In this document: positions 37,230 to 55,448 of the stretch, piece by piece
Layout: the number at the start of each line of letters is the position of its first letter
Position numbering within the stretch: position 1 is the stretch's first letter
Made by a program: the position numbers and the translations under genes
The notes under the pieces: model-generated
What the model saw: the letters and a program-made list of their open reading frames with translations, nothing else
Told to the model about the DNA's origin: nothing
The model's database searches: none
Assembly (NCBI RefSeq): GCF_907165195.1
Contig: NZ_OU015584.1
Span: 1,488,001-1,552,000 of the forward strand
Direction of reading: 5' to 3'
Length of the DNA stretch: 64,000 bases
Source: Parvicella tangerina
Lineage (GTDB): Bacteria; Bacteroidota; Bacteroidia; Flavobacteriales_D; Parvicellaceae

Positions 37230-40200
37230 TTATCGCTGCAGTTCAAACGGTCCTTGATATTCGTGGACTTCGCCTCTAAAATCAGTAACCCATAAAAGAT
37301 AATAATAACCTCCTTCACTGGCCTCAAGACCGGAATAAGTTCTACCATCCCAACCACCATCTAAGGCTTCAAATTCATACATTAATTGTCCCCATCTGTT
37401 GTAAATCATACAATGAAGGTCTGTAGCATTTTGTAGCGTAAAGTGGAAGATATCGTTCTCATCATCTCCATTAGGTGTGAAGATGTTTGGAATGATAATC
37501 GAGTATTCTCCTGATGCATCGATCATAACAGAAGCGGTATCTGAACATCCAAACTCATCTGTCACAATTAGCTCAATGGTATAGTTTCCCATTTCATCAT
37601 AAGTAACGGTCGGTTCAAATTGCGCAGAATTGGTACCATTTCCCATGTCCCACAAATAAGATAGGTTACTTCCTGTAGAGTTATTGGTTGTACTTACGTT
37701 TAGTGGGATAACTCCAGAAGTTGGAGTTGGGGTAAAGTCGGCTGTAGGAGCCGCTGCGCTAATCACTGTCACGTCAGTAGATGAAGAACATCCGTTATCA
37801 TTTGTAACCGTCAATGTGTATGTCCCAGCTCCTCCAGCAGTTAGGATGTTCGTATTATCACCAGACACTAAAACACCATCTGTAGTAGTCCAAACGTACG
37901 TTTCGTTGCTGCCCGTTGTACCACTTGCATCCAGGTCTACCACTGTCACGTTACAATTTAGCGTGTCAGCTGCGTTGTAACTGATCGTAGGTGTTACCGT
38001 ATCCATTGTAACCAATAGGTCTTCGGTGTCTGAACAACCATTGTCTCCTGTAACCGTAACTGTGTATGTCCCCGCTGCATCAACTGTTGCGTTGCTTCCA
38101 GTCTGAGAAACTAGGTTTCCATCACTAGTGGTGAAGTTATAGGTTAAGTTCGTTCCAATTGAATTGCTGCCGTCAAGTATTGCTTGATTGTTTGATGTAC
38201 AAGTAATAATCGTAGATGCAGTGGCAGATAAGTCTGCCGTAGGAGATATCGTATCTGTTGAAATGGTTACAGTTGCTGTAGCCGTACAGTTGTTTGAAGT
38301 GTTCGTAACTAAAATAGTGTAATCACCTTCTTGATCAACAGATGGAGTAGTAGTGGTTCCGCTGATTATTGTACCCGTTCCTGTAGTAGACCATGAGTAA
38401 GTAATGTTCGTCCCACTATCTGAACCTGAACCATCCAAAGTGACAGGTAGGTTATTCGAAGAACATGTTACGGTAATATCCGCTCCTGCGTCTGCAACTG
38501 GGGCGTTTGAATCTGGAATAACGTCAACAATATCTGTGTCAGTACATCCATTAGATCCCGTTACCGTTAAAGTAAATGTACCAGTGGCGTCAGCATCTGG
38601 TGTAGCTGTATTTCCGTTTGTAATTGTGCCAGGCCCTGTCCAATCATAGGTAATACCTGTTCCGGTAGATCCTGAACCATCTAAAGCCACAGTAGAAACT
38701 CCACAAGGAAAGTTCACATCTGCTCCCGCCATTGCATTTGGTGATGCGGTGTCAATCGCTAAGGTAATATCTACAAAGTCACTACAACTGTTCGTAGTGT
38801 TTGTAATAGTCAACGTATACGTACCATCTTGATCAGCAGTAGTGGATAAAGAAGAAGTAGAACCAGTAATGTTTCCATCAGAAGTGCTCCATGCAATTGT
38901 GTAACCCGCTCCTGAAGAAGAGCCTGTTCCATCTAGCGTAATGGAAGGATTGTTACAATCTACGGTAGCTGCACTCGGTGTAGCCGAAACAGTTGGTAAG
39001 GTAACATCTTCTGTGATCGTAATACTTGCCGTATTCGTACATCCATTTCCTGGATCCGTTACCGTCATCGTATAATCACCAGGAGCATCAATGGTTGGAG
39101 TAGCAGTAGTTCCACCACTCACAATATTTCCTCCAGTAGTTGTCCATGAGTAGTTTACTCCAGCAGTAGTAGATGAACCTGCTATGGTCGTTGAAGTCGT
39201 ACTACAGTCTAGATCAGAAGTAGCTCCAATCTGTGCGTCTGGCGTATTCGCATCAGCAATAACTTCAACTTCATCCGTATTCGTACATCCACTAGTAGGG
39301 TTCGTAACTGTCATAGTGTAAGTACCACTTCCGTTTACATCGGGAGTAGCAGTAGATCCACCTGAAACGATACCAGGTCCTGACCAGCTAAAGTTTACAC
39401 CTCCCGTTGAAGAGGAACCGTTTAGCGTTAAAGTTGGCGAGCTACATGTTAGTGTTTGATCAAGTCCAGCATCAGCGTTAGGTGTTACTGTATCTATGGC
39501 AAGTGTCACATCTACAAAATCGCTACAGCTATTCACTGTATTCGTAATTGTCAAGGTATAGGTTCCATCTTGATCAGCAGTAGTGGATAAAGAAGAAGTT
39601 GATCCTGTAATGTTACCATCAGAAGTGCTCCATACAGTCGTATATCCAGCTCCCGAAGAAGATCCTGTACCGTCTAGTGTAATTGAAGGATTGTTACAAT
39701 CTACGGTAGTTGCACTCGGTGTAGCCGAAACAGTAGGTAAGGTAACATCTTCAGCGATTGTGATGTTGGCAGTATTGGTACATCCATTTCCTGGATCAGT
39801 TACCGTCATCGTATAATCACCCGGAGCGTCAATGGTTGGAGTAGCGGTAGTTCCTCCGCTCACAATGTTACCTCCAGTAGTTGTCCATGAGTAATTCACA
39901 CCTGGAGTTGTCGAAGATCCTGCTATGGCTGTAGAAGTAGTACTACAATCTAAGTCTGATGTAGCTCCGATCTGCGCATCTGGAATATTAGCATCAGCAT
40001 TAACTACCATATCATCTGACGCAGTACATCCATTACCTGGGTCAGTTACAGTCAGTGTGTAAGTACCTGTACCATTCACGTCTGGAGTTGCTGAAGAGCC
40101 TCCTGACACTATACTTGGCCCACTCCAGCTATAGGTAGCTCCAACAGTACTCGATGATCCGCTTAAGGTTAGAGTAGTTGTGGCACAGGTTAACGTTAGG

Positions 40201-43200
40201 TCTCCACCTGCATTCACATTTGGAGATACTGTATCAATGGTTAATGTAACATCTGTAAAGTCACTGCATCCATTATTGTTGTCAGTAATGGTTAAGGTGT
40301 AGGTTCCATCTTCATCAGCAGTAGTTGTTAAAGAGGAAGTTGAACCAGTAATGTTTCCATCAGCTGTTGACCATGCAATGGTATAACCAGCCCCTGATGA
40401 AGATCCAGTTCCATCTAGTGTGATACTGGTATTGTTACAGTCTACAACTGAAGCACTACTTCCTGCCGCTACTGTTGGAGTGGTAAGGTCGTTGTTTACA
40501 GTTGTAGTAGCTGTGTTCGTACAGGTCGTTGTTGGATCTGTTACGGTTAGTGTATAAGTTCCCGTAGCATTCACAGTTGGTGTAGCTGTAGAACCTCCTG
40601 AGACAATTCCAGGACCGCTCCAGCTATAGTTAACACCTGCTGTAGTAGATGATCCACTTAAAGATACAGATGAATTATTACAGTCTATGGTGGCTGTTCC
40701 GCCTGCATCGGCATCTGGAGTAGGGTTAACCGTAACATCAACCGTTTGAGTAGCTCCCTGACAGCTTCCAGATGTGGCAGTAGGGTAAACATCATAACTC
40801 ACTACCTGCGGAGATGTTGTGGCATTGGTTAAAGTATTGTTGATAGTAGCACTTGTTTGATTAGTAGTACTTTCACCGCCAACATTCGTATTACTAGCTG
40901 CTACCCATGTAAAAGTGGATGCGATATCAGAAGTTAATCCGAAACTCATGGTCTCTCCATCACAGATTTCATCCGTATTTCCTGAAGTCATTGTCGGAAC
41001 AGGATTAACTAATACCGCTACGCTTTGAGGGTCTCCAGAACAACCTCCAGTGGTGGCAGTTGAATAAACAGTGTAGTCAACCGTACTTGGAGATCCAGAA
41101 GTATTGGTCAACACATCTGATATAGTTGATGTAGTTTGCGTTGAGGTGCTTTCACCTGAAACGTCCGTATTTGTTGCCGCAACCCAAGCGTACGAAGCCC
41201 CCATATTACTGGTTAATGCTAAATTTGGAGATGAACCGGAACAAATTGCTGCACTATTAGCGCTAGTCATTACTGGTTTTGGGTTTACTGTAATTGTGAC
41301 AACCTGATCAGCGCCTACACAAGAACCTCCAGTACTTGTAGGTGTAACCGTGTAGTTAACGGTTTGAACAGAAGTTGTTGTATTTGTTAAGGCATCTGTA
41401 ATCGTTCCAGTAGTTTGAGTAGTGGTAGTTTCTCCAGTAACATTTGGGTTAGAGCTTGCTGACCATTCGAAGGTAGATGAAATATTACTTTGGAGTATAA
41501 TGTTCGTAGATCCTTCACTACAAATAGTTTGAGAAGATGAATTGATCATACTGGGCAATGGATTAACAACTACGTCAATATCTTGCGGAGGACCAGCACA
41601 TCCATCACTGGAGGTTGGCGTGATCGTATAAGTCACCGTTTGAGGTCCGCTTGTTGAATTAATAAGATCATCTGTAATGGTTGTTGCTGTGCTCGTTGTA
41701 GTAGTTTCTCCAGCAACGTTGGTGTTATTTGATGCAGACCAGGAGTATGTAGATGCTAGGTCTGAGGTGATCGGAATATTTAAAGCGATGTCGGAACAAG
41801 TGGTGTTCGAAGCGTTATTGGTTATGGTAGGAAGCTGATTAACATCAACCGTATGTTCCAATGTTTGTTTGTAACCACAAACTCCTTCTACTACACACGT
41901 GTAAGTAGTAGTTGTTGATGGACTCACAACGATGCTTTGTGTGGTGGCCCCTCCAGGAGACCATAAATAACTGGTTGCAGTGGCTGGTGCAGTCAATGTA
42001 GTTGTCTCACCTGAACATATCGGGTTAGCTGTCGCGGTAATTTCAGGGAAAGCCACACCAGATTCTGCTGTAATGGTGTAATTACAAATATCGCCCGCAT
42101 ATCCATCAACCATTAGGTAATAATCTTGTCCGATGGTTAAACCTGTTGCCGTAATCGTAAATCCAGTTGAACTCTCTTCAAAGTTGGAGACCGAAACGAA
42201 ATCATCACAATTTGTACCAGAGAAAACCTGCATCTGAATACCTCCACTTGGGTAACTCCCTACCCAACAATCGAAAATATCCACAAAAAGTGTAGCTGTG
42301 GTCGCAGAAGCCGTAAATGTAATCCACGAGTTATTATCAATGGTAACATCGTAATAACCAGAGGGAGATGTTCCGTTGGGGTAACCAAATGGACCACCAG
42401 AATGAACAGTATTCGTACCTCCGAGATAAACTCCACCAGTAGTTTCACCATTCCCATACATTTGAGTTCCTGAGACTCCACCAGGTCGATCTTCAGTGTA
42501 AGCAGCACTGGTTGATGCGCCATACCCATTCAAGTCGCATATATACAATGCATTCACACAATCATCATTTGTAGGAGCTTGTACACATAAGCCAAAATCC
42601 CCTGAAGAGGTTCCAAAGCCAAAGTATCTAATGTAATACGTTTGACCCGGTGTCAGTCCTGTTTCAGCTATGTAAGGTAAGAAATCATTTGAACCACCCG
42701 GGTAGTTGTTGTCGTCTGAACAGGTAATTTGCGTCAATGCTCCACAAGTACCCGAATAAAGTACCATTACACCATCGGTAATACCATAGCCGGGTTGTGG
42801 AGTAATGAATAATTCACCAGAAGCCGGGGCTTCCACACTAAACCATACATCAGCAGTACCTGTTGTAAACCCACCGATTGCGGCTCCACTTCCTCCAATG
42901 CATGCAGATGGTGCGCCAGGAGTGGTAGTCGTAGTGGCACCAGTTGTCGTAAAATTAAGATAATTACAAGCAGAAGTAACAGGAGGAAGCGCTATCGCAT
43001 TACAGGGTTCATCATTTGATGGAACCGCTGTTGGGTCGCCAACAACGCAAATCTGAAATGGATCACCACCTGTTGAGGTATAGTAATCATAAACTCTTAC
43101 GTAATAAGTATTGCCGGGTATTAAACCAACTGCATCGATTTGTTCATTCCCATCGGTAAAGCCAGAATCCTCACAATAAAGAGAAGTAAGTCCAGCACAG

Positions 43201-43874
43201 GTTCCCTCGAATAGCTGAATAACGGGATCCATTGATGAAGAAGGATCTACAGTAATGGTTTGAACGGAGTTGGTTGCCACAAAACTAAACCAAACGTCAT
43301 CATCAGCATTTCCCGCACAGCCCGTTAATGATTCTGTTGCTCCCTCTGAAGTACTCGATACATAGGTGCATGAACTGCTTACGGTTAAAGGTGTCGCATT
43401 AGAGCAGGCATCATTGGATGGGGGAGGTGTTCCCTCAGTAACACAAATCGTGAAGTTTCCAGTTCCACTACCTGCATAGTAGTCATAAACTCGAATCGTA
43501 TATGTATTACCTATGGTCAATCCAGAAGCATAGATGGTTTCAACTCCTCCGTCAAACGACTGATCCTGGCAACCTAAAGAAACTAGTGTTGAGCAAGATC
43601 CTGAGAATAGTTGCACCACCGCATCAAAACCAGCAGCACCATCTACCGTGATCTCATGGGTTGTACTTGTAGCTGTAAAAGTGTACCAAACATCATCATC
43701 TGCTGTACCAACACAACCTGTTATTGTTTGCGTTGCTCCAGTGGTGGTTCCAGCAGTAGGGGAGGAGCAGTTTGCTGTAACGGGTAGCGAAGTAGCTCCT
43801 GAACATCCATCAGACTGAGCGTAGATTGCTACTGAGGAGAAAATCCCCAGGATTATAAATCCTAAATACTTCAT
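37230..43874 (-). CDS. Giant T9SS type-B sorted adhesin with repeated Ig/PKD-like domains
   Basis: 2214 residues. Signal peptide MKYLGFIILGIFSSVAIYAQ, then three repeats of a jelly-roll-like module (for example DDDVWYTFTATSTTHEITVD and NTYTIRVYDYY), an Ig-like unit (SYLWSPGG), about five PKD-like units opening with a Cys-Ser pair (ICSEGSTN) and closing in VTVNP, and about twelve Ser/Thr/Gly-rich domains with the consensus YSWSGPGIVSGGSTATP and TYTLTVTDP. A classical PKD domain (YLWDMGNGTNSAQFEPTVTY) precedes the C-terminal gliding-motility-associated domain (IPNIFTPNGDDENDIFHF, MIYNRWGQLMYE). It is predicted to be exported by the type IX system and displayed on the cell surface. Its near-identical 741-bp DNA repeats suggest recombination-driven length change. 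Confidence 0.93.
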   Translation of the reverse strand: MKYLGFIILGIFSSVAIYAQSDGCSGATSLPVTANCSSPTAGTTTGATQTITGCVGTADDDVWYTFTATSTTHEITVDGAAGFDAVVQLFSGSCSTLVSLGCQDQSFDGGVETIYASGLTIGNTYTIRVYDYYAGSGTGNFTICVTEGTPPPSNDACSNATPLTVSSSCTYVSSTSEGATESLTGCAGNADDDVWFSFVATNSVQTITVDPSSSMDPVIQLFEGTCAGLTSLYCEDSGFTDGNEQIDAVGLIPGNTYYVRVYDYYTSTGGDPFQICVVGDPTAVPSNDEPCNAIALPPVTSACNYLNFTTTGATTTTTPGAPSACIGGSGAAIGGFTTGTADVWFSVEAPASGELFITPQPGYGITDGVMVLYSGTCGALTQITCSDDNNYPGGSNDFLPYIAETGLTPGQTYYIRYFGFGTSSGDFGLCVQAPTNDDCVNALYICDLNGYGASTSAAYTEDRPGGVSGTQMYGNGETTGGVYLGGTNTVHSGGPFGYPNGTSPSGYYDVTIDNNSWITFTASATTATLFVDIFDCWVGSYPSGGIQMQVFSGTNCDDFVSVSNFEESSTGFTITATGLTIGQDYYLMVDGYAGDICNYTITAESGVAFPEITATANPICSGETTTLTAPATATSYLWSPGGATTQSIVVSPSTTTTYTCVVEGVCGYKQTLEHTVDVNQLPTITNNASNTTCSDIALNIPITSDLASTYSWSASNNTNVAGETTTTSTATTITDDLINSTSGPQTVTYTITPTSSDGCAGPPQDIDVVVNPLPSMINSSSQTICSEGSTNIILQSNISSTFEWSASSNPNVTGETTTTQTTGTITDALTNTTTSVQTVNYTVTPTSTGGSCVGADQVVTITVNPKPVMTSANSAAICSGSSPNLALTSNMGASYAWVAATNTDVSGESTSTQTTSTISDVLTNTSGSPSTVDYTVYSTATTGGCSGDPQSVAVLVNPVPTMTSGNTDEICDGETMSFGLTSDIASTFTWVAASNTNVGGESTTNQTSATINNTLTNATTSPQVVSYDVYPTATSGSCQGATQTVDVTVNPTPDADAGGTATIDCNNSSVSLSGSSTTAGVNYSWSGPGIVSGGSTATPTVNATGTYTLTVTDPTTTCTNTATTTVNNDLTTPTVAAGSSASVVDCNNTSITLDGTGSSSGAGYTIAWSTADGNITGSTSSLTTTADEDGTYTLTITDNNNGCSDFTDVTLTIDTVSPNVNAGGDLTLTCATTTLTLSGSSSTVGATYSWSGPSIVSGGSSATPDVNGTGTYTLTVTDPGNGCTASDDMVVNADANIPDAQIGATSDLDCSTTSTAIAGSSTTPGVNYSWTTTGGNIVSGGTTATPTIDAPGDYTMTVTDPGNGCTNTANITIAEDVTLPTVSATPSATTVDCNNPSITLDGTGSSSGAGYTTVWSTSDGNITGSTSSLSTTADQDGTYTLTITNTVNSCSDFVDVTLAIDTVTPNADAGLDQTLTCSSPTLTLNGSSSTGGVNFSWSGPGIVSGGSTATPDVNGSGTYTMTVTNPTSGCTNTDEVEVIADANTPDAQIGATSDLDCSTTSTTIAGSSTTAGVNYSWTTTGGNIVSGGTTATPTIDAPGDYTMTVTDPGNGCTNTASITITEDVTLPTVSATPSAATVDCNNPSITLDGTGSSSGAGYTIAWSTSDGNITGSTSSLSTTADQDGTYTLTITNTTNSCSDFVDITLAIDTASPNAMAGADVNFPCGVSTVALDGSGSTGTGITYDWTGPGTITNGNTATPDADATGTFTLTVTGSNGCTDTDIVDVIPDSNAPVADAGADITVTCSSNNLPVTLDGSGSDSGTNITYSWSTTGTGTIISGTTTTPSVDQEGDYTILVTNTSNNCTATATVTISTDTISPTADLSATASTIITCTSNNQAILDGSNSIGTNLTYNFTTSDGNLVSQTGSNATVDAAGTYTVTVTGDNGCSDTEDLLVTMDTVTPTISYNAADTLNCNVTVVDLDASGTTGSNETYVWTTTDGVLVSGDNTNILTAGGAGTYTLTVTNDNGCSSSTDVTVISAAAPTADFTPTPTSGVIPLNVSTTNNSTGSNLSYLWDMGNGTNSAQFEPTVTYDEMGNYTIELIVTDEFGCSDTASVMIDASGEYSIIIPNIFTPNGDDENDIFHFTLQNATDLHCMIYNRWGQLMYEFEALDGGWDGRTYSGLEASEGGYYYLLWVTDFRGEVHEYQGPFELQR
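38751..40232. repeat. Two tandem 741-bp repeats inside the adhesin gene
   Basis: Units 38751-39491 and 39492-40232 encode nearly the same 247-residue, three-domain block (both contain DAQIGATSDLDCSTTST and SATPSA-TVDCNNPSITLDG). The period is a multiple of three, so unequal crossing-over would add or remove whole domains in frame. Confidence 0.8.
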
Positions 43875-46309: not shown

Positions 46310-46393
46310 AATAATAAATTTTATGCACACTGTAACTTTTGGGGGTAGTTAATTGTTCTACTATCAAAGCCGAAAGGGTAAAAATATCTTATT

Positions 46394-46882
46394 TTGAACC
46401 GAAGAGAGTACAATAAAGTGGTAGTAACATATTCTGAGAATGTGTTTCGTTATGCTTTCAAGTGGACTCGAAATGAACAGGATTCTAAAGATTTAGTTCA
46501 GGATGTTTTTGGTAAACTATGGGAATTTCGCAAAAAAGTGGAGTTCAAGAGTGCTAAACCTTGGTTATTTACTTGTATGCACAACGCACTGGTCAATTTT
46601 TCTAAGAAGAAGAGCGTTGTTGAACATATTTTAGATGTTAATGCCAAGATGCCGATCATGTACCAGCCCAATTACGCTTTGAAGGACTTGCTTCAAAAAT
46701 CATTAGCACAGCTTTCTGACGTTCAACGATCAATTGTGATCTTGAGAGATTCGGAAGGTTATAGCTATGAAGAAATAGGTGACATTCTGGAACTGTCAGA
46801 GTCTCAGGTTAAAGTTTACCTATTTAGAGCGAGAAAGAAAGTAAAAGAACAATTGAAAGATCTTTCAGAGTTAGTTGCATGA
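46394..46882 (+). CDS. ECF-type RNA polymerase sigma factor
   Basis: 162 residues with a TTG start (no upstream ATG gives a better fit). Region 2: NVFRYAFKWTRNEQDSKDLVQDVFGKLWE, the core- and -10-binding helices. Region 4: LSDVQRSIVILRDSEGYSYE and ESQVKVYLFRARKKVKEQLK. Length and the absence of region 3 make it an ECF sigma factor. Its stop overlaps the start of the next gene (ATGA, 46879-46882), whose N-terminus looks like an anti-sigma factor. It should control a regulon linked to type IX secretion or envelope state; SigP of Porphyromonas is a known ECF factor with such a role. Confidence 0.93.
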   Translation: MNRREYNKVVVTYSENVFRYAFKWTRNEQDSKDLVQDVFGKLWEFRKKVEFKSAKPWLFTCMHNALVNFSKKKSVVEHILDVNAKMPIMYQPNYALKDLLQKSLAQLSDVQRSIVILRDSEGYSYEEIGDILELSESQVKVYLFRARKKVKEQLKDLSELVA

Positions 46883-48678
46883 TTATCAATCCCAACAACA
46901 TAGAAAAATGGTGCTTCGATTATTTCGAGGGTAATCTAACTTCTCTGGAACGTTTGGAGTTCGAGCGTTTTATTCTGGAGCACCCTGAGTATCAGGATGA
47001 ATTTGAAGCCTGGAAGAATGCCTCTGATAGTGAAGATGAAAAGGTGCCGGCATTTCTCGGTGTTGAAGGTCTTATCGTGGCGATTCCTTTCTATGCTACT
47101 TGGGTTTTCAAAGTTTCGATAGGAGTGATTTTATTGTTGTCGATTGGGACGGTTGGTTATTATCAATTCGAGTCAACTTCAACACGGAAAGCGTATGCAA
47201 GTCAGTCAAGATCTGTAGATTTGAATTGGAGTCCTGAGCAACATAAATTGGCTGTGGTGCGTTATACGGATTATGCTTACGGTGAGTATGAAGTGAAGAC
47301 GAAAACAACAACTACCTATACAACCAACTATATTTATCTAAATAATACTGGAACGGATGAATCTGAAAATGTTAATAGCCTTCCAGATGTTGATCAGGAG
47401 TTAAACACTCTGCTGAATGATCACTGGAGTGAGTCTGCGCTTCACGAACTAGTTGTTGACCCTTCTGCTATGAAAGAAGAGAAGTTAGCTCAATATCAAC
47501 CTGCACCAATTGTTGAGGAATCTCTGTTTAGTAGTAATAGTAAGTTAAAATCGTCTTACCAGGTTGATGATAAAACGCTTTATGACCATTTAGGTATCAA
47601 TGCTTCTAGGTATCAATTCCTGAACTTTAACAATGGTAAAGTGAAAGGTTTAGGATCGAATTCCTCAAATAGGAATAATAAAGCAGGAAAAAATAAGAAC
47701 CACGCAACGATCATTGCTCAAAATAAACCTAACGGTAAAAAGTTAGGTAGTCACAAAAAGAAATCTTCGTTCTTTTCAAATTTGAAGCACTTGGAGTTAG
47801 GTCTTACAAATATTAATGATCCAATTTCTATCGCACCAAATTATAATACGGTCGCAACTAATCCTGCGTTGGCTGGTCAGTTAGGTGTAACAAGAATCAA
47901 AACGAATGTGAGAAACCAATGGTGGGGTACAAACGCTAGTGTTTATAAAGGATCATTCTATGTGGATACTTATTTTGAAGGTATTCAAGCAGGTGTGGCT
48001 TATGGAACTGAATATGATCTATCAGCAGATGGAAACCAGCATGTGAATAAGCATACCTTTACCTATGCACAAAAGTTCAGCATAGCTAGAGGATCAAACA
48101 TCTCCGTGGGGCTCAGTTATGAGATGACAAAAGGTTATTCCTTAAGTAATCTACCAACCGAGAATGAGTTTTATAGAAATGCTCCTATTTCCTCGGAAAG
48201 CCTGTCTAATACGTGGAGAAGCGATCTTGGTCTCTCATCTTGGTATAGTGGAAAATACTTTTTTGGAGGATTTAATGTAACCAATTTGTTGGGGAACACG
48301 TTTATCGCAACTCATGAAGAAAATACTTCATATTTCGGAAATATTAATTTCTCCCTTCAATTGGGTACAGACTATAAACGTTCAATGTTTGCTAAAACAG
48401 TGTTGAGTCCTTACATACAATATGATAAACAGGGAGATTACCAAGACTTTTGGATGGGTGGTGTAGCCAGAATCAGAGGTCTTGTGCTTGGAGGAGGTGT
48501 TGCCACCTCTAAATCCGCAAAAGCAATGCTTGGTCTTCAAGGAAATAAATTTAGATTTACAGTGAGTTCTGATTATTCAAAGTCTATGCTATTAGATCAA
48601 TATGCGTTTAGTCATGAAGTCTCTTTGAGAATTTTGATAGGAAATAAAAACAATAACTGGAGTCGTTATGATAATTAA
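46879..48678 (+). CDS. Anti-sigma-like / membrane helix / PorP-SprF-like fusion protein
   Basis: 599 residues. Residues 1-55 resemble the cytoplasmic part of anti-sigma factors (KWCFDYFEGNLTSLERLEFE, ILEHPEYQDEFEAW). One membrane helix follows at about 76-97 (VFKVSIGVILLLSIGTVGYY). A polar periplasmic linker of about 200 residues ends in a Lys/Asn-rich stretch. Residues from about 302 match PorP/SprF proteins: ISIAPNYNTVATNPALAGQL, a dozen amphipathic strands, and an ending HEVSLRILIG parallel to HEVSLGIVF of the next gene. The polypeptide thus seems to span both membranes, linking an outer-membrane T9SS component to the ECF factor encoded just upstream (4-base overlap). It overlaps the next gene by 11 bases. 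I know of no described example. Confidence 0.8.
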   Translation: MIINPNNIEKWCFDYFEGNLTSLERLEFERFILEHPEYQDEFEAWKNASDSEDEKVPAFLGVEGLIVAIPFYATWVFKVSIGVILLLSIGTVGYYQFESTSTRKAYASQSRSVDLNWSPEQHKLAVVRYTDYAYGEYEVKTKTTTTYTTNYIYLNNTGTDESENVNSLPDVDQELNTLLNDHWSESALHELVVDPSAMKEEKLAQYQPAPIVEESLFSSNSKLKSSYQVDDKTLYDHLGINASRYQFLNFNNGKVKGLGSNSSNRNNKAGKNKNHATIIAQNKPNGKKLGSHKKKSSFFSNLKHLELGLTNINDPISIAPNYNTVATNPALAGQLGVTRIKTNVRNQWWGTNASVYKGSFYVDTYFEGIQAGVAYGTEYDLSADGNQHVNKHTFTYAQKFSIARGSNISVGLSYEMTKGYSLSNLPTENEFYRNAPISSESLSNTWRSDLGLSSWYSGKYFFGGFNVTNLLGNTFIATHEENTSYFGNINFSLQLGTDYKRSMFAKTVLSPYIQYDKQGDYQDFWMGGVARIRGLVLGGGVATSKSAKAMLGLQGNKFRFTVSSDYSKSMLLDQYAFSHEVSLRILIGNKNNNWSRYDN

Positions 48679-49669
48679 TACAAAAAACATAGTGCGTGTA
48701 GGAACACTTGTTTTATTGTTCATTGCAGGAGGTAACATGACGGAAGTGAAAGCTCAAGATCCTGAGTTTACACAGTTTTATGCTAACCCCCTTTATTTGA
48801 ACCCTGCTTTGGCTGGTTCTAAAAGATGTCCAAGAATAGGTCTGAACTACCGAAATCAATGGCCAAACTTAACGGGAAGTTTTGTTACATCTTCAGCTTC
48901 TTATGATCAGTTTGTAGATGGTTTGAACGGTGGAATAGGGTTTTACGCCATGTCTGATAATGCGGCAAATACGCTGAAAACGACTCGTGCAGCTTTTATG
49001 TATTCCTACAAAATACCATTGACGAGAAAGTTCTCTATCAATCTGGCGGCAGAGGCAGCTTTCTTCCAGAAATCAATTGACGTTAATAAACTAACCTTTG
49101 GAGATATGATCGACCCAAGAAGAGGGTTCGTTTATCAAACAAGTGACATTGTTCCAGGTAATTCAGTGAGCAATGTAGATTTCTCTGCAGGAATTTTGGG
49201 ATATACTGATGTTTTCTACTTTGGTGCAGCTGCTCACCACCTAACTGAGCCAAATGAGAGTTTGCTTGGTAATCAGGGTGATCAGAATGCTAGATTGCCC
49301 ATGAAAATAACGGGGCATGCTGGAGCAATGATACCATTGAACAATACGGGAGGATCATACAGCAAAGGAAATACGTTTATTTCTCCCAATATCCTTTACC
49401 GTCAGCAAGGAACATTTACCCAATTAAATATGGGGCTTTATATCAAATCAGGAGCTCTTACTTATGGGGTTTGGTATAGAAATAAAGATGCTTTTATTGC
49501 TACAGTTGGAATTGAAACAAATAATTTTAGAATGGGATATAGTTACGATGTTACACTTTCTAAGTTGGGCATTGCCTCAGGTGGTTCTCACGAAGTTTCA
49601 CTTGGAATCGTATTTCCATGTAAACCAAAAAGAAAAAGATATAGAACAATTTCTTGTCCGTCTTTCTAA
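48668..49669 (+). CDS. PorP/SprF family type IX secretion system membrane protein
   Basis: 333 residues. Signal peptide ending near AGGNMTEVKAQ, then the family hallmark DPEFTQFYANPLYLNPALAG and RIGLNYRNQWPNL, followed by beta strands to the end (SGGSHEVSLGIVF). PorP/SprF proteins are outer-membrane components that attach specific T9SS substrates, often encoded next to a giant adhesin. Here it follows the sigma factor and fusion genes with an 11-base overlap, so three genes form one translationally coupled unit. No adhesin is adjacent. Confidence 0.95.
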   Translation: MIINTKNIVRVGTLVLLFIAGGNMTEVKAQDPEFTQFYANPLYLNPALAGSKRCPRIGLNYRNQWPNLTGSFVTSSASYDQFVDGLNGGIGFYAMSDNAANTLKTTRAAFMYSYKIPLTRKFSINLAAEAAFFQKSIDVNKLTFGDMIDPRRGFVYQTSDIVPGNSVSNVDFSAGILGYTDVFYFGAAAHHLTEPNESLLGNQGDQNARLPMKITGHAGAMIPLNNTGGSYSKGNTFISPNILYRQQGTFTQLNMGLYIKSGALTYGVWYRNKDAFIATVGIETNNFRMGYSYDVTLSKLGIASGGSHEVSLGIVFPCKPKRKRYRTISCPSF

Positions 49670-49802: not shown

Positions 49803-49847
49803 ATTTATTTGATTTATCATTGTATTGAGAAAACAAACCCAGACGTT

Positions 49848-52800
49848 ATGAAAAAACTAAACTACCTAAACCTTATACTGATAAGCATTTTAGCTATTGG
49901 CTTGTACTCTTGTTCAGAGAAAGTAACTGAGAAACTAAGAGTAACCCCTAACTTTTCGAAGTATGTGAGTGGATATACTTCTGGAGTAATCACCAAGCAA
50001 TCGGCTATACAAATACAACTTACGGAAGATTATACAGGGTCTATTAATTATGATAAGCCCATTGATAAGGAGTTGTTTACTTTCGTACCAGCAGTCAGTG
50101 GAAAGGCATATTGGGTAAGTAGAAATATGATTGAATTTGTACCTGACGTCCCATTCAAATCTGGAGAAACCTACGATGTTCATTTTGATCTTAAAGAGTT
50201 GGTTGAGGTAGAAGAAGGTTGTGAAGACTTCGCTTTTAACTTTAAGACAGTTTCATTGATCGGGGATCTGTATATCGATGAAGTGAACACTCCAAATGCT
50301 GAAGATCTCAAATATCAACAAATTCAAGGGCGTCTAGTTTTATCAGATATAGAAGACACGGCAAAGATCAAGAAGGGACTGCAAGTTTATCAGGATGGAA
50401 AAGAACTACCCGTTGAGTGGGTTTTTAATGGTGGACTCATTCATCGCTTTATGGTCAATGGTGTTGAACGAAAAAGCAAGGAGAGTGAAGTTAAAGTAAC
50501 GTGGTCTGGAGCGGCAATCAGTTCAACTTATGATGATGCAGTAACGATTGATATTCCGGCAATGGGCCAATTTGAGGTTACGAATATTGAAGTGATCCAT
50601 GAGCCCGATCAATATGTACGCGTCCATTTTTCAGATCCAATACAGACGGGTCAAGACCTAACAGGTTTGATAACAGTTGATGGTGCTGATAACTTGAATT
50701 ATCTCATCGATGGGCAAGTGATCAATGTTTATTATACATCAAGGCTATCCGGTTATAGAAACGTCACTGTAAGCAGTGGGATTAAAAATGTTGCTGGGAA
50801 ACGTATGCAAGAGGGAGACTATCTGGAATTGCTTTTTGAAGGACTAAAACCTATGGTTAAGTTATTGAACAATGGTGTTGTAGCTCCTCATACGCCAGAA
50901 GGAGTTCAGTTTCCATTTGAAGCAGTAAACCTCGCAGCAGTTGATGTATATGTAACCAAGGTCTACGAAAACAATATTTTGCAGTTTTTGCAGGTCAATA
51001 ACCTAAGTGGAGACTATCAGATGAAGCGAGTTTCTCAAGAAGTTTATCGTCAAACCATTTTACTAAATCAAAATCCAGAAATGAATCTCCACGAATGGAA
51101 TAAGTTCTTTATTGATCTTTCACCCATTGTGAGCAAAGATGAAGGGGCTTTGTATCAAGTGCAGATAAGATTCAAGAAAGAGTATAGCGTTTATGGCTGT
51201 GACGGTCAAACGGTTTCACCAACGAGCCTACAAACCATTGAACCAGAACTAGAAACAGAGTGGACCGAAGCTGGTTGGGACACTTATGATTATTGGTATG
51301 ATTACGACTATTGGGATTACTACGATCCAGAGTATGATTACAAAGAGAGAAAGAACCCTTGTAACCCCGCCTATTATTCTGGTAAAGAAGTACAAGCAAA
51401 TATTCTGGCATCTGATATTGGCATGATGGCAAAGGCAGGTGGTGATAAAACCATGCACATTTTCTTGAATAACTTGTTGACCACTGCACCTATATCCGGA
51501 GCAACCGTTGAGTTCTATAACTTTCAACAAAAATTGATTGGAAAGACCACTTCTGATGAGCAAGGAATGTGTGAAATGTACCTCGAGGAAAAACCTTATG
51601 TAGCCATTGCGAAATATGGTGAGCAAAGAGGCTATTTGAGGTTGAGAGATGGAGAGGCATTGTCGTTAAGCAAATTTGATGTTGGAGGAAGCTATGTTCA
51701 GAATGGGATCAAAGGGTTCATGTACACTGAACGCGGGGTTTGGCGTCCTGGAGATAGTATTTATATCTCTTTTATGCTTGAAGATAAAAATGACGTGCTT
51801 CCAGATAGCCACCCGGTTTCTTTTACACTTTATAATCCAAAGAATCAGGTAGTGGATAAGCAGACGGCTACGAGTAGTGTAAACGGATTGTATGATTTTA
51901 GGACAGCTACCGATGCAGAGGCGTTAACAGGTAACTATTTTGCAAAGATCAAGATTGGAAATCGTACCTTCTCAAGAGTAATAAAAGTGGAGACGGTTAA
52001 GCCCAATCGTTTGAAAATCTATTTGGATTTCGGTAAGAAACTTTTGACTAATCTGGATAAATCGAATCTTGGAAAGCTCAATGTTAAATGGCTTCACGGA
52101 GCGGTAGCTAAGAATCTGAAAGCAAAAGTAGACATGACGCTTACAAGAAAGTATACGAGCTTTAGTAAGTTCAAAGGATACATCTTTGATGATCCGCTCA
52201 AAAGTTTTAATGCAGAGGATCAGGTCATTTTTGAGGACTACGTGAATGAAGAAGGAGAGGCCTCTTTCATGCCCAATATCTATATCGGAGATAATGCCCC
52301 AGGAATGCTTAAAGCCAACTTTGTGACCAAAGTTTTTGAAAAAGGTGGAGGATTCTCGATAGATCGTTCTTCCATTGATTATTCTCCTTACAACTCCTAT
52401 GTTGGGGTAAAGGTACCTAAAGGAACGCTTTGGGGTAATACATTGGTAACGGACAAAGAACATACTTTTGAGATTGCATCTGTAGACGCAGAAGGAAATC
52501 CAGTGTCCACAAAAGATGTTCATGTTCAAGTGTACAAAGTATCCTGGAAATGGTGGTGGGATTCTTATAGTAATGACATTGCAAGCTATATCGCCCAAAC
52601 CAGTACTGTTCCAGTGTATGACAGAAATATAAGCACATCGAAAGGAAAAGCAACGTTCAACCTAACGGTTAAAAAGCCAGATTGGGGCCGATACTTCGTT
52701 AGAGTAACTGACCCGAATAGCGGACATACTACTGGCAAGATCTTTTATGTAGATTGGCCTTATGAATACCGTCATGAAAGAACCTCTATTGAGAATGCAA

Positions 52801-55448
52801 CGATGCTTAGTTTTTCTACAGACAAAGAGGTTTACAATACAGGAGACCGTGTTAAAGTATCTTTTCCTTCTCCAGATAAAGGAAAAGCGATCATTGCAAT
52901 TGAGACAGGTACTAAATTGCTCGACAAAAAGTTGATCAGCACGGTGAAAGGTGAAACAACCTATGAATTCATGACTACTCCTGATATGGCACCAAATGTA
53001 TATGTTCATATTACGTTGCTTCAACCGCATGCGAATACCTTGAATGATGCTCCAATTCGAATGTATGGTGTGGCACCCATTCAGGTAGAGGATCCGAATA
53101 CTCATTTTCATCCAGAAATAGATATGCCAGAAGTGCTGGAACCTGAAACTACAGCAAAAGTTACGGTTTCAGAGAAAGATGGTAAACCAATGACCTATAC
53201 GTTGGCCATTGTTGATGAGGGGTTATTAGATCTTACTTCCTTTAAAACGCCACAACCTTGGGATCATTTCTATGCAAAAGAAGCGCTTGGTGTTAAAACT
53301 TGGGATTTGTATGATAATGTTATGGGAGCTTTTGGAACTGAGCTGCAGAAATTGTTAGCCGTTGGAGGTGATGGTGCAGCGGAAACCAAAAAGCCGAATA
53401 AAGCCAATCGATTTGAGCCTATGGTGAGATTTGTAGGTCCCTTCGAACTCCCTGCTGGCGGATTCAAAACACATACCATTGATATTCCTAATTATATAGG
53501 TTCTGTGAGAGTGATGGTAGTTGCCGGGCAGGATGCCAAATACGGTACGGAAGAGAAAACAGTGCCGGTGAGGAGTCCGTTAATGGTGTTGGGTACGTTA
53601 CCTAGAGTGCTTAGTCCAACAGAAGAAGTGTTCCTACCTGTAAACGTCTTTGCAATGGAAGACCATGTAAAAGATGTGAAGATCAAAGTGACGACCAATG
53701 ATTTAGTAAAAGTAGTTGGGGCGAATACTAAATCGATGCATTTCGATAAAATTGGCGATGAAGTAGAGAACTTTAAACTGAAGGTTTCTGAGAAGATTGG
53801 TATTGCCAAAGTTCATATAGAAGTAACGAGTGGAAACGAATCCGCAAAGTATGATGTGGAACTGGATGTTCGTACACCAAATCCTTCGGTGTCTGATGTT
53901 TATACAGAGGCCATAGAAGCTGGAGACAGTTGGAGTCCTGAGTTTGCTTTCAGCGGAATAGAGGGAACGAACTATGCCACAGTAGAGGTGTCTACCTTCC
54001 CTCCAATCAATTTAGATCAGCGCTTGAAATACCTGGTAAGATATCCGCATGGTTGTATCGAACAGACAACTAGTGCTGCTTTCCCACAGTTGGCCTTGGA
54101 TAAAGTGATGAATCTAAATAATGATTATAAAATCACGATTGATCAAAACATCAAAGCTGCGTTAGATAGGCTGAGATTATTCCAGACCTATGAAGGCGGT
54201 TTTGCCTACTGGCCTGGACAAACGGATGCTTCCGAATGGGGGACCAATTACGCTGGACATTTTATGCTCGAGGCAGAGGCTAAGGGGTATAAATTGCCTA
54301 TCGGACTAAAATCAAGTTGGTTAAAATATCAAAAGTCGGTTGCATCCAATTATAAGGTGCTGACAGTTCCTGTCAATACCAGAGGATATAATGCCTACAA
54401 TAAACCTTACTATGCTGATCTTACACAGGCGTATAGGTTGTATACTCTAGCATTGGCTAATGCGGCTGATCTTGGTGCGATGAATAGGTTGAGAGAGAGC
54501 GCTTATTTAACGCTTCCCGCAAAGTGGAGGTTAGCGGCTGCTTATCAACTCATAGGCCAAAAGTCTGTTGCTCAGGATCTGGTGGAGTCGTTAAGTACGG
54601 ATGTGCCCAAATATAATGAGTTGTCTTATACTTACGGAAGTGATATTAGAGATGAAGCCATGATTCTGGAGACACTCGTTATGATGAAAGATAAGAAGGC
54701 AGCAGGTCTGGCAAAACAGATTGCGGAGTATATGAATTCGAAAAGATGGATGAGTACGCAAACGACCGCCTATTGCTTGATTGCCATTAGCAAGTACCTT
54801 GGAGAGAATAAGACGAGTGAAGTAATGAATTTCAGCTATGCGGTTAATGGAAAAGAGGTAGCGGTTAAGAAAACGAAGAATCCAATTTATCAGAATCAGG
54901 TGGCTACTTCTACGGATAAGAACGAGATCAGGATCAAAAACAATGGCGAAGGTGTTCTTTTTGCCAAGCTTGTAGTTGAAGGAGTTCCTGTTATCGGAGA
55001 CCAAAGTAGCGCTGAGAATAACGTAAATCTCAACATTAGATACCTTGATATGGATCGAAACGAGATCTCTCCTGAACAAATCGAACAAGGTACAGATTTC
55101 ATTGCAGAAGTAACGTTGAGCAACCCAAGCACTAGAGGATATCTCAAAGAGATGACCTTGAATCAACTATTCCCGTCTGGATGGGAGATCCATAACAACA
55201 GAATGGATGGCTTTGCAAGTACCTTGACCAACTCTTATTATGACTATCAGGATATCCGTGATGATAGGGTGTATACATATTACGCACTGAGTAAAGGCGA
55301 GAAGAAAACCTATCAGATTCAGTTGAATGCAACCTATCTGGGTAAATTCTACCTACCAACGGTAGAAACTGAAGCTATGTATGACGATGAGATCAACGCT
55401 AGAGTAGGAGGTAAGTGGGTTGAAGTAATTCAACCAAGAGCAAACTAA
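49848..55448 (+). CDS. Bacterial alpha-2-macroglobulin family lipoprotein
   Basis: 1866 residues from the ATG at 49848, which gives a lipoprotein signal peptide with lipobox LYSC (an ATG at 49809 would destroy it). N-terminal macroglobulin domains, then the MG2 signature MYTERGVWRPGDSIYISFML, an unusual Tyr/Asp-rich stretch near residues 480-500 (DYWYDYDYWDYYDPEYDY), a bait-like region, the A2M domain (YTLAIVDEGLLDLTSF) and the thioester motif YPHGCIEQTTS (Cys and Gln of CIEQ) in the TED domain, ending in receptor-like beta strands. Such proteins trap proteases in the periplasm. The usual partner pbpC (PBP1C) is not adjacent; a peptidoglycan dipeptidase lies convergently downstream. Confidence 0.95.
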   Translation: MKKLNYLNLILISILAIGLYSCSEKVTEKLRVTPNFSKYVSGYTSGVITKQSAIQIQLTEDYTGSINYDKPIDKELFTFVPAVSGKAYWVSRNMIEFVPDVPFKSGETYDVHFDLKELVEVEEGCEDFAFNFKTVSLIGDLYIDEVNTPNAEDLKYQQIQGRLVLSDIEDTAKIKKGLQVYQDGKELPVEWVFNGGLIHRFMVNGVERKSKESEVKVTWSGAAISSTYDDAVTIDIPAMGQFEVTNIEVIHEPDQYVRVHFSDPIQTGQDLTGLITVDGADNLNYLIDGQVINVYYTSRLSGYRNVTVSSGIKNVAGKRMQEGDYLELLFEGLKPMVKLLNNGVVAPHTPEGVQFPFEAVNLAAVDVYVTKVYENNILQFLQVNNLSGDYQMKRVSQEVYRQTILLNQNPEMNLHEWNKFFIDLSPIVSKDEGALYQVQIRFKKEYSVYGCDGQTVSPTSLQTIEPELETEWTEAGWDTYDYWYDYDYWDYYDPEYDYKERKNPCNPAYYSGKEVQANILASDIGMMAKAGGDKTMHIFLNNLLTTAPISGATVEFYNFQQKLIGKTTSDEQGMCEMYLEEKPYVAIAKYGEQRGYLRLRDGEALSLSKFDVGGSYVQNGIKGFMYTERGVWRPGDSIYISFMLEDKNDVLPDSHPVSFTLYNPKNQVVDKQTATSSVNGLYDFRTATDAEALTGNYFAKIKIGNRTFSRVIKVETVKPNRLKIYLDFGKKLLTNLDKSNLGKLNVKWLHGAVAKNLKAKVDMTLTRKYTSFSKFKGYIFDDPLKSFNAEDQVIFEDYVNEEGEASFMPNIYIGDNAPGMLKANFVTKVFEKGGGFSIDRSSIDYSPYNSYVGVKVPKGTLWGNTLVTDKEHTFEIASVDAEGNPVSTKDVHVQVYKVSWKWWWDSYSNDIASYIAQTSTVPVYDRNISTSKGKATFNLTVKKPDWGRYFVRVTDPNSGHTTGKIFYVDWPYEYRHERTSIENATMLSFSTDKEVYNTGDRVKVSFPSPDKGKAIIAIETGTKLLDKKLISTVKGETTYEFMTTPDMAPNVYVHITLLQPHANTLNDAPIRMYGVAPIQVEDPNTHFHPEIDMPEVLEPETTAKVTVSEKDGKPMTYTLAIVDEGLLDLTSFKTPQPWDHFYAKEALGVKTWDLYDNVMGAFGTELQKLLAVGGDGAAETKKPNKANRFEPMVRFVGPFELPAGGFKTHTIDIPNYIGSVRVMVVAGQDAKYGTEEKTVPVRSPLMVLGTLPRVLSPTEEVFLPVNVFAMEDHVKDVKIKVTTNDLVKVVGANTKSMHFDKIGDEVENFKLKVSEKIGIAKVHIEVTSGNESAKYDVELDVRTPNPSVSDVYTEAIEAGDSWSPEFAFSGIEGTNYATVEVSTFPPINLDQRLKYLVRYPHGCIEQTTSAAFPQLALDKVMNLNNDYKITIDQNIKAALDRLRLFQTYEGGFAYWPGQTDASEWGTNYAGHFMLEAEAKGYKLPIGLKSSWLKYQKSVASNYKVLTVPVNTRGYNAYNKPYYADLTQAYRLYTLALANAADLGAMNRLRESAYLTLPAKWRLAAAYQLIGQKSVAQDLVESLSTDVPKYNELSYTYGSDIRDEAMILETLVMMKDKKAAGLAKQIAEYMNSKRWMSTQTTAYCLIAISKYLGENKTSEVMNFSYAVNGKEVAVKKTKNPIYQNQVATSTDKNEIRIKNNGEGVLFAKLVVEGVPVIGDQSSAENNVNLNIRYLDMDRNEISPEQIEQGTDFIAEVTLSNPSTRGYLKEMTLNQLFPSGWEIHNNRMDGFASTLTNSYYDYQDIRDDRVYTYYALSKGEKKTYQIQLNATYLGKFYLPTVETEAMYDDEINARVGGKWVEVIQPRAN

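Follow-up and report, generated by a model that had tools for sequence, protein, structure and literature searches.

A 64,000-nucleotide window of the Parvicella tangerina genome (RefSeq assembly GCF_907165195.1, contig NZ_OU015584.1, positions 1,488,001 to 1,552,000) carries a three-gene operon whose middle gene fuses an anti-sigma-like domain to a barrel of the PorP/SprF family, the carriers of the type IX secretion system (T9SS). All three genes lie on the + strand: an extracytoplasmic function (ECF) sigma factor of 162 residues with a TTG start (46394-46882), the fusion protein of 599 residues (46879-48678), and a partner PorP/SprF carrier of 333 residues (48668-49669). The sigma gene and the fusion gene overlap by 4 bases, the fusion and PorP genes by 11 bases. 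Three overlapping genes had been described by the first-pass annotation of the window, and all of the open reading frames are present. The sigma factor consists of sigma regions 2 and 4 only (Pfam Sigma70_r2, 2.6e-10; Sigma70_r4_2, 1.3e-15) and falls within the size of about 160–190 residues that marks the ECF group. Its best NCBIfam match is NF058625, the “GFO_1088 family ECF-type sigma factor”, at 122.7 bits and under the cut-off of 130.

The fusion protein was modeled at full length with AlphaFold2 on 14 homologs and is divided into four parts. Residues 1-50 (46879-47028, + strand) appear as a three-helix anti-sigma-like domain, with helices at residues 8-17, 22-34, and 36-50. A single inner-membrane helix is predicted at residues 75-97 (47101-47169, +), where the model shows a helix; every intact fusion homolog has one hydrophobic peak, at about residues 63-80. 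The periplasmic linker, residues 98-310 (47170-47808, +), is poorly conserved and predicted to be disordered, as residues 93-308 stay under a predicted local distance difference test (pLDDT) score of 50 (values of 25-45), and its length ranges from 153 to 275 residues across 52 homologs. The single helix and the linker of some 200 residues described at first pass are thus borne out by the model, which gives a disordered stretch of about 210 residues. The protein ends in a predicted 14-strand PorP/SprF-type outer-membrane barrel that has no C-terminal cysteine tail (residues 316-590; 47824-48648, +).

The identity of the barrel is supported by both family models and structure. Residues 322-584 match Pfam PorP_SprF (PF11751) at 1.9e-20 and 74 bits against a cut-off of 22.3. 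The score in TIGR03519 is 63.3 bits and thus under the family cut-off of 90.55, which makes the barrel a diverged PorP/SprF relative and not a standard member. In the model, about 14 strands lie between residues 338 and 587, and the closest solved structures are chain F of the T9SS translocons 8gl6 and 6h3i (Z scores of 23.4 and 22.9; root-mean-square deviation of 3.3-3.4 over about 250 residues, VIA-align). FadL is also among the closest matches, and FadL-like chains of Bacteroidota barrel assembly machinery (BAM) complexes match the model as well (9n2d_B, Z 20.5; 9hjm_F, Z 19.4). Sequence searches of the Protein Data Bank (PDB) with the fusion alignment or with the partner gave no match. The first-pass annotation had staked its proposal on a PorP/SprF barrel at the C-terminus; the predicted fold is of the PorP/SprF/FadL type, and the top-ranking structure belongs to the T9SS. 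The barrel resembles the SprF/PorP carriers of type B substrates in its PF11751 family and 14-strand FadL fold. It differs from them in that a cytoplasmic domain and a membrane helix replace the signal peptide and in that a C-terminal tail cysteine is absent.

For the N-terminus, the anti-sigma assignment is more tentative. The domain was folded alone from 50 homologs with an AlphaFold2 pLDDT of about 76, and when residues 1-64 were compared with the whole PDB, the top ranks were taken by the anti-sigma domains of ChrR, RslA, RsiW, MucA, and RskA, each of which was solved together with its own sigma factor. Two NCBIfam anti-sigma models match 16 and 7 of the 50 homologs, respectively, always under the cut-off; Pfam does not recognize the domain, and its sequence returns only chance matches in the PDB. 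The anti-sigma N-terminus proposed at first pass therefore stands in part: the fold ranks sigma-bound anti-sigma domains first, by matches that are weak, and the domain may bind the neighboring sigma factor.

The same arrangement recurs well beyond P. tangerina. The fusion protein occurs in the genus, the family, and the order; a search for related loci with the single protein found nothing, and one based on an alignment succeeded. Fusion and adjacent sigma gene stand together at 50 or more loci outside this genome, and the gene order recurs in dozens of Flavobacteriales genomes. Across 299 genomes of the order, the matches listed include some sixty fused barrels in frames of about 500-670 residues; a sample of 394 further genomes from across the phylum yielded no full-length fusion. 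In 37 loci compared from named genome records (Flavobacteriales, several labeled Crocinitomicaceae), the sigma gene lies directly 5′ of the fusion in nearly all, and a PorP/SprF gene lies directly 3′ wherever the contig continues, save in one lineage (L066/L116, L118). Over 56 loci, the next gene is PorP/SprF in 46, and most of the remainder are contig ends or belong to one lineage. By median identity to the window sequence, the partner is the best conserved part (54%, n = 37), followed by the sigma factor (49%), the anti-sigma domain (40%), the barrel (22%), and the linker (12%). In the tree, all fused barrels fall into one clade with a support of 100/100, and a single, ancient fusion event is therefore most likely. 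The search for the same domain order in other genomes that had been proposed as a check thus came out in favor of the fusion; the recurring gene order and the single barrel clade mean that it is not a product of chance or of an assembly accident.

The partner is a standard family member (PF11751, 3.9e-63; TIGR03519, 244 bits) and carries a two-cysteine C-terminal tail, CKPKRKRYRTISCPSF, at 49619-49666 (+). All complete partners (37/37) have such a tail, ending in ...SCPSF or ...RCPSF, whereas a tail cysteine is found in none of the complete fusions; the last strand of one of them does contain a cysteine. In Flavobacterium johnsoniae, SprF has a periplasmic C-terminal tail with two cysteines, one of which is disulfide-bonded to the track protein GldK only after cargo loading (PMC12635249). 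By analogy, the partner tail may bond to GldK in the same way, with a spacing that differs from the Cys-X-Cys of SprF. The fused barrel, in turn, looks like a carrier without the track connection that is tied to the inner membrane instead. A further PorP/SprF (G000:C1:1434269-1435156, −; L177:5215-6201) is 62% identical to the partner and shares its SCPSF tail, and the gene beside it encodes a lipoprotein that resembles GldJ/GldK by eye.

PorP/SprF proteins are specific and limiting carriers of type B cargo (PMC12618676, PMC9143113). The P. tangerina genome holds 22 PorP-type genes and 43 matches to the type B signal, and 15 of the 22 are preceded by a type B gene on the same strand, usually no more than 100 bases away. 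No type B gene lies upstream of the fusion or the partner; the partner instead sits 3′ of the fusion. In this respect, it resembles the “orphan” shuttle of F. johnsoniae, which serves several cargo proteins (PMC12618676).

The operon is preceded by a predicted ECF-type promoter (46331-46366, +; TGTAACTTTT-N11-ATTGTTCTAC), the first base of which lies 63 bases before the sigma start. The gene upstream is a divergent fadD-like gene. Since its relatives have about 584-586 residues, its start is more likely at about 46163 than at 46367, which leaves a promoter region of about 230 bases. The motif was found 5′ of the sigma gene in 56/56 loci for which 200 or more upstream bases were available. It shows few substitutions and consists of TGTAACTTTT and (A/T)TTGTTTTA, separated by 10-11 bases. 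Because the sites were located by the TGTAAC hexamer and a portion of the TTG box, the invariance of these elements is partly built in; the TTTT that follows TGTAAC and the TTTA that follows TTG are mostly independent of the placement. Its position before the sigma gene itself is that of an autoregulatory promoter. In P. tangerina, the operon promoter is the sole exact match of the pattern genome-wide and also the best match of a profile that was built from 37 promoter sites and scanned over 12 genomes, in most of which the operon site ranks best or near-best.

Outside the operon, profile sites inside genes were discarded and intergenic sites before an open reading frame were kept. Such sites precede PorP/SprF genes in four genomes: P. 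tangerina (place 3426777), G002, G055, and G010. The PorP genes behind the P. tangerina and G002 sites are 42% identical and are sisters in the tree. In G055, a site also precedes a short lipoprotein consisting of hardly anything but a type B signal (TIGR04131, 42 bits; cut-off 35), and a site in G504 precedes a 189-residue protein resembling it. A PorG-like gene (NF052316, 6e-21, under the cut-off) follows a site in G015, a family of small lipoproteins follows sites in two genomes, and an outer-membrane-like family of about 220 residues that has no Pfam match stands behind the predicted promoter in three (L308:871-1524, −; L295:1523-2188; L304:789-1508, −). In total, T9SS genes stand at 7 of the 13 intergenic sites (binomial p about 2e-9 on an assumed background of 2% T9SS genes). 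The predicted promoter before other PorP/SprF genes supports a T9SS connection beyond the fusion itself, and the link between sigma factor and T9SS drawn at first pass is thereby strengthened.

The overall design of the fusion has a precedent. Dma1 and Dma2 of Bacteroides combine an N-terminal anti-sigma domain, one membrane helix, a long disordered tether, and a C-terminal β-barrel, and they are encoded next to a sigma factor of the ECF21 group (PMC13088901). The fusion shares this four-part plan, with a putative anti-sigma domain, a single membrane helix, a long disordered tether, a C-terminal barrel, and an ECF sigma gene that adjoins it in nearly every intact locus; the likeness drawn here is one of architecture. 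How one chain can join an inner-membrane helix and an outer-membrane barrel had been posed as a puzzle at first pass, to which the Dma precedent already supplies the answer. The Dma effects concern vesicles and polysaccharide loci, and a glycan is merely hypothesized as the Dma2 signal (PMC13088901). Unlike in Dma, the barrel of the fusion is of the PorP/SprF type, an intact PorP/SprF gene follows it, and the predicted regulon consists of T9SS carriers.

Several sigma-adjacent relatives (L088:428-1477, −; L068:7502-8773; L069:8227-9507; L070:7076-8401; L071:536-1801) have the same N-terminal motif, mostly duplicated, and a membrane helix. They end in a common F-x-(I/L)-G-x-F-x-F-x-R type motif with no recognizable barrel. 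Relatives of 420-440 residues were considered as ordinary small-barrel Dma proteins, and the assignment was dropped as they match no barrel family and their C-terminal part is poorly conserved. Another sigma-adjacent protein of 501 residues (L171:4996-6501, −) has a single membrane helix early in the chain, and its last strand, IGLNFGIGFKL, is barrel-like; it is a possible ordinary Dma-type protein.

Two other systems were compared. In FecI/FecR and other cell-surface signaling systems, the state of an outer-membrane barrel controls an ECF sigma factor via an inner-membrane anti-sigma factor. There, barrel and anti-sigma factor are separate proteins that touch in the periplasm, whereas the fusion has both in one chain. 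PorXY-SigP (with PorA) of Porphyromonas gingivalis links an ECF sigma factor to T9SS genes and a surface C-terminal domain protein (PMC7712824). It signals via a two-component system and has no fused anti-sigma barrel, so SigP, which had been invoked as a parallel at first pass, represents a different route. No description of a PorP/SprF-fused anti-sigma factor, or of an anti-sigma factor with a T9SS signal, was found in the open-licence literature. The novelty lies in the type of barrel, the partner gene beside it, the predicted regulon with its T9SS genes, and the contrast in tail cysteines; the four-part plan itself was already known.

Taken together, the operon is best explained as a Dma-like, dual-membrane-spanning anti-sigma system in which a specialized copy of the T9SS type B carrier PorP/SprF serves as the sensor and carrier supply is placed under feedback, a reading to which we assign a probability of roughly 0.6. 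In the proposed mechanism, the cytoplasmic N-terminus of the fusion would keep the ECF sigma factor inactive, and the membrane helix and disordered linker would span the periplasm and connect it with the outer-membrane barrel. This barrel would most likely report how type B secretion is proceeding, namely whether type B cargo is queuing at the translocon or carriers are in short supply. The first-pass annotation had likewise inferred that the state of the secretion complex or its substrate occupancy is signaled to the sigma factor. A change of state would pull, rearrange, or cut the tether and release the sigma factor, which would subsequently transcribe its own operon, yielding partner carrier and more anti-sigma protein, as well as other PorP/SprF carriers and small envelope genes. 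The outcome would be a feedback loop on carrier supply. Type B carriers of F. johnsoniae are of low abundance and limit the secretion of overproduced cargo (PMC12618676), so a sensor of demand would be useful. The sharper form of the proposal, in which a carrier paralog freed from the track forms the surface end of a one-chain sensor of type B cargo or carrier demand and sets carrier supply through its own sigma factor, is put forward tentatively, at a little less than even odds.

Several results weigh against this explanation. The structural matches of the anti-sigma domain are individually weak (Foldseek E values of 1.6-6, the best being 1.6; Z scores of 3.2-5.7), and as single scores they carry little, so that the identification depends on the agreement among matches and on the gene context. 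The fused barrel has diverged to the median of 22% identity given above and may no longer bind type B signals. In P. tangerina only the operon site is strong in the profile scan (1.8e-5, followed by 0.013 and 0.074). With up to two mismatches, the promoter pattern occurs 27 times in the genome and a reversed control 29 times; a genome-wide regulon drawn from this pattern was rejected as noise in favor of the profile, and the absence of an excess means that the regulon must be small. As for the count of T9SS genes at profile sites, the 13 sites were judged intergenic by eye, and the 2% background of the binomial test is an estimate.

Among the alternatives, the one that fares best is that the barrel monitors outer-membrane protein assembly, so that a barrel left unfolded by BAM exposes the linker or the barrel end to cleavage and the sigma factor is released by the logic of sigmaE/RseA. 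Any barrel needs BAM, the model also matches the FadL-like chains of BAM complexes, and the linker is long, disordered, and fast-evolving. The predicted targets, however, comprise carriers, type B signal proteins, and small envelope genes, with no BAM, chaperone, or DegP gene recognized among the annotated ones, and the sequence family of the barrel is PorP/SprF. This explanation is considered unlikely. Less probable still is a barrel that is a mere anchor of a protein sensing envelope width, peptidoglycan, or a glycan, its PorP/SprF origin being incidental. Dma proteins have a C-terminal barrel without an identified signal (PMC13088901), and the fused barrel is diverged in sequence; yet PorP/SprF is the next gene in most of the loci, and the promoter recurs at other PorP/SprF genes. 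Slightly more doubtful is a mechanical signal, in which the partner travels along the GldK track, the inner-membrane tether keeps the fused carrier in place, and tension or collisions between carriers are read out; the tail cysteines kept in the partner and absent from the fusion, together with SprF-GldK bonding (PMC12635249), are consistent with it. That the protein is cleaved after the membrane helix and its two parts act separately is very improbable. An AYA sequence shortly after the helix of the window protein speaks for it, but this sequence is not conserved in the alignment, and the two parts have stayed in one chain ever since their single origin.

The P. tangerina genome encodes further sigma-adjacent proteins that touch on the preferred explanation, a carrier-based sensor of type B secretion. 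Two of them (L168:8289-9446, −, with its sigma gene at L168:9436-9999; L169:7815-9134, −, with its sigma gene at L169:9131-9700) carry a single membrane helix around residue 50-60, one or more PKD domains, and, at the C-terminus, a T9SS type B signal that exceeds the CHU_C/TIGR04131 cut-off. Elsewhere in the family and the order, each type is again found beside a sigma gene (16 and 20 loci checked). They resemble anti-sigma proteins that the T9SS itself exports as cargo, a counterpart of the fusion, and may serve the same purpose from the cargo side. Within the window, a 2214-residue protein with a T9SS type B signal (37230-43874, −; TIGR04131, 48 bits) lies beyond the fadD-like gene. Its relatives are found near the same operon in G002, G010, and G023, and it is a possible candidate cargo of the partner carrier. 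Just 3′ of the operon lies a 1879-residue alpha-2-macroglobulin-like protein (49809-55448, +), which is not operon-adjacent in the relatives mapped.

If the carrier-based reading is true, the fusion would give the dual-membrane anti-sigma factors their first identifiable signal. Its sensor barrel comes from a family whose biochemical role is defined, and the predicted regulon includes that very role. This match makes the question of what dual-membrane sensors detect testable, by varying type B cargo or carrier and reading the promoter. The tail cysteines that are present in the partner and absent from the sensor offer a natural comparison for the attachment of carriers to the gliding track. 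The T9SS itself would gain a dedicated feedback control outside of PorXY-SigP.

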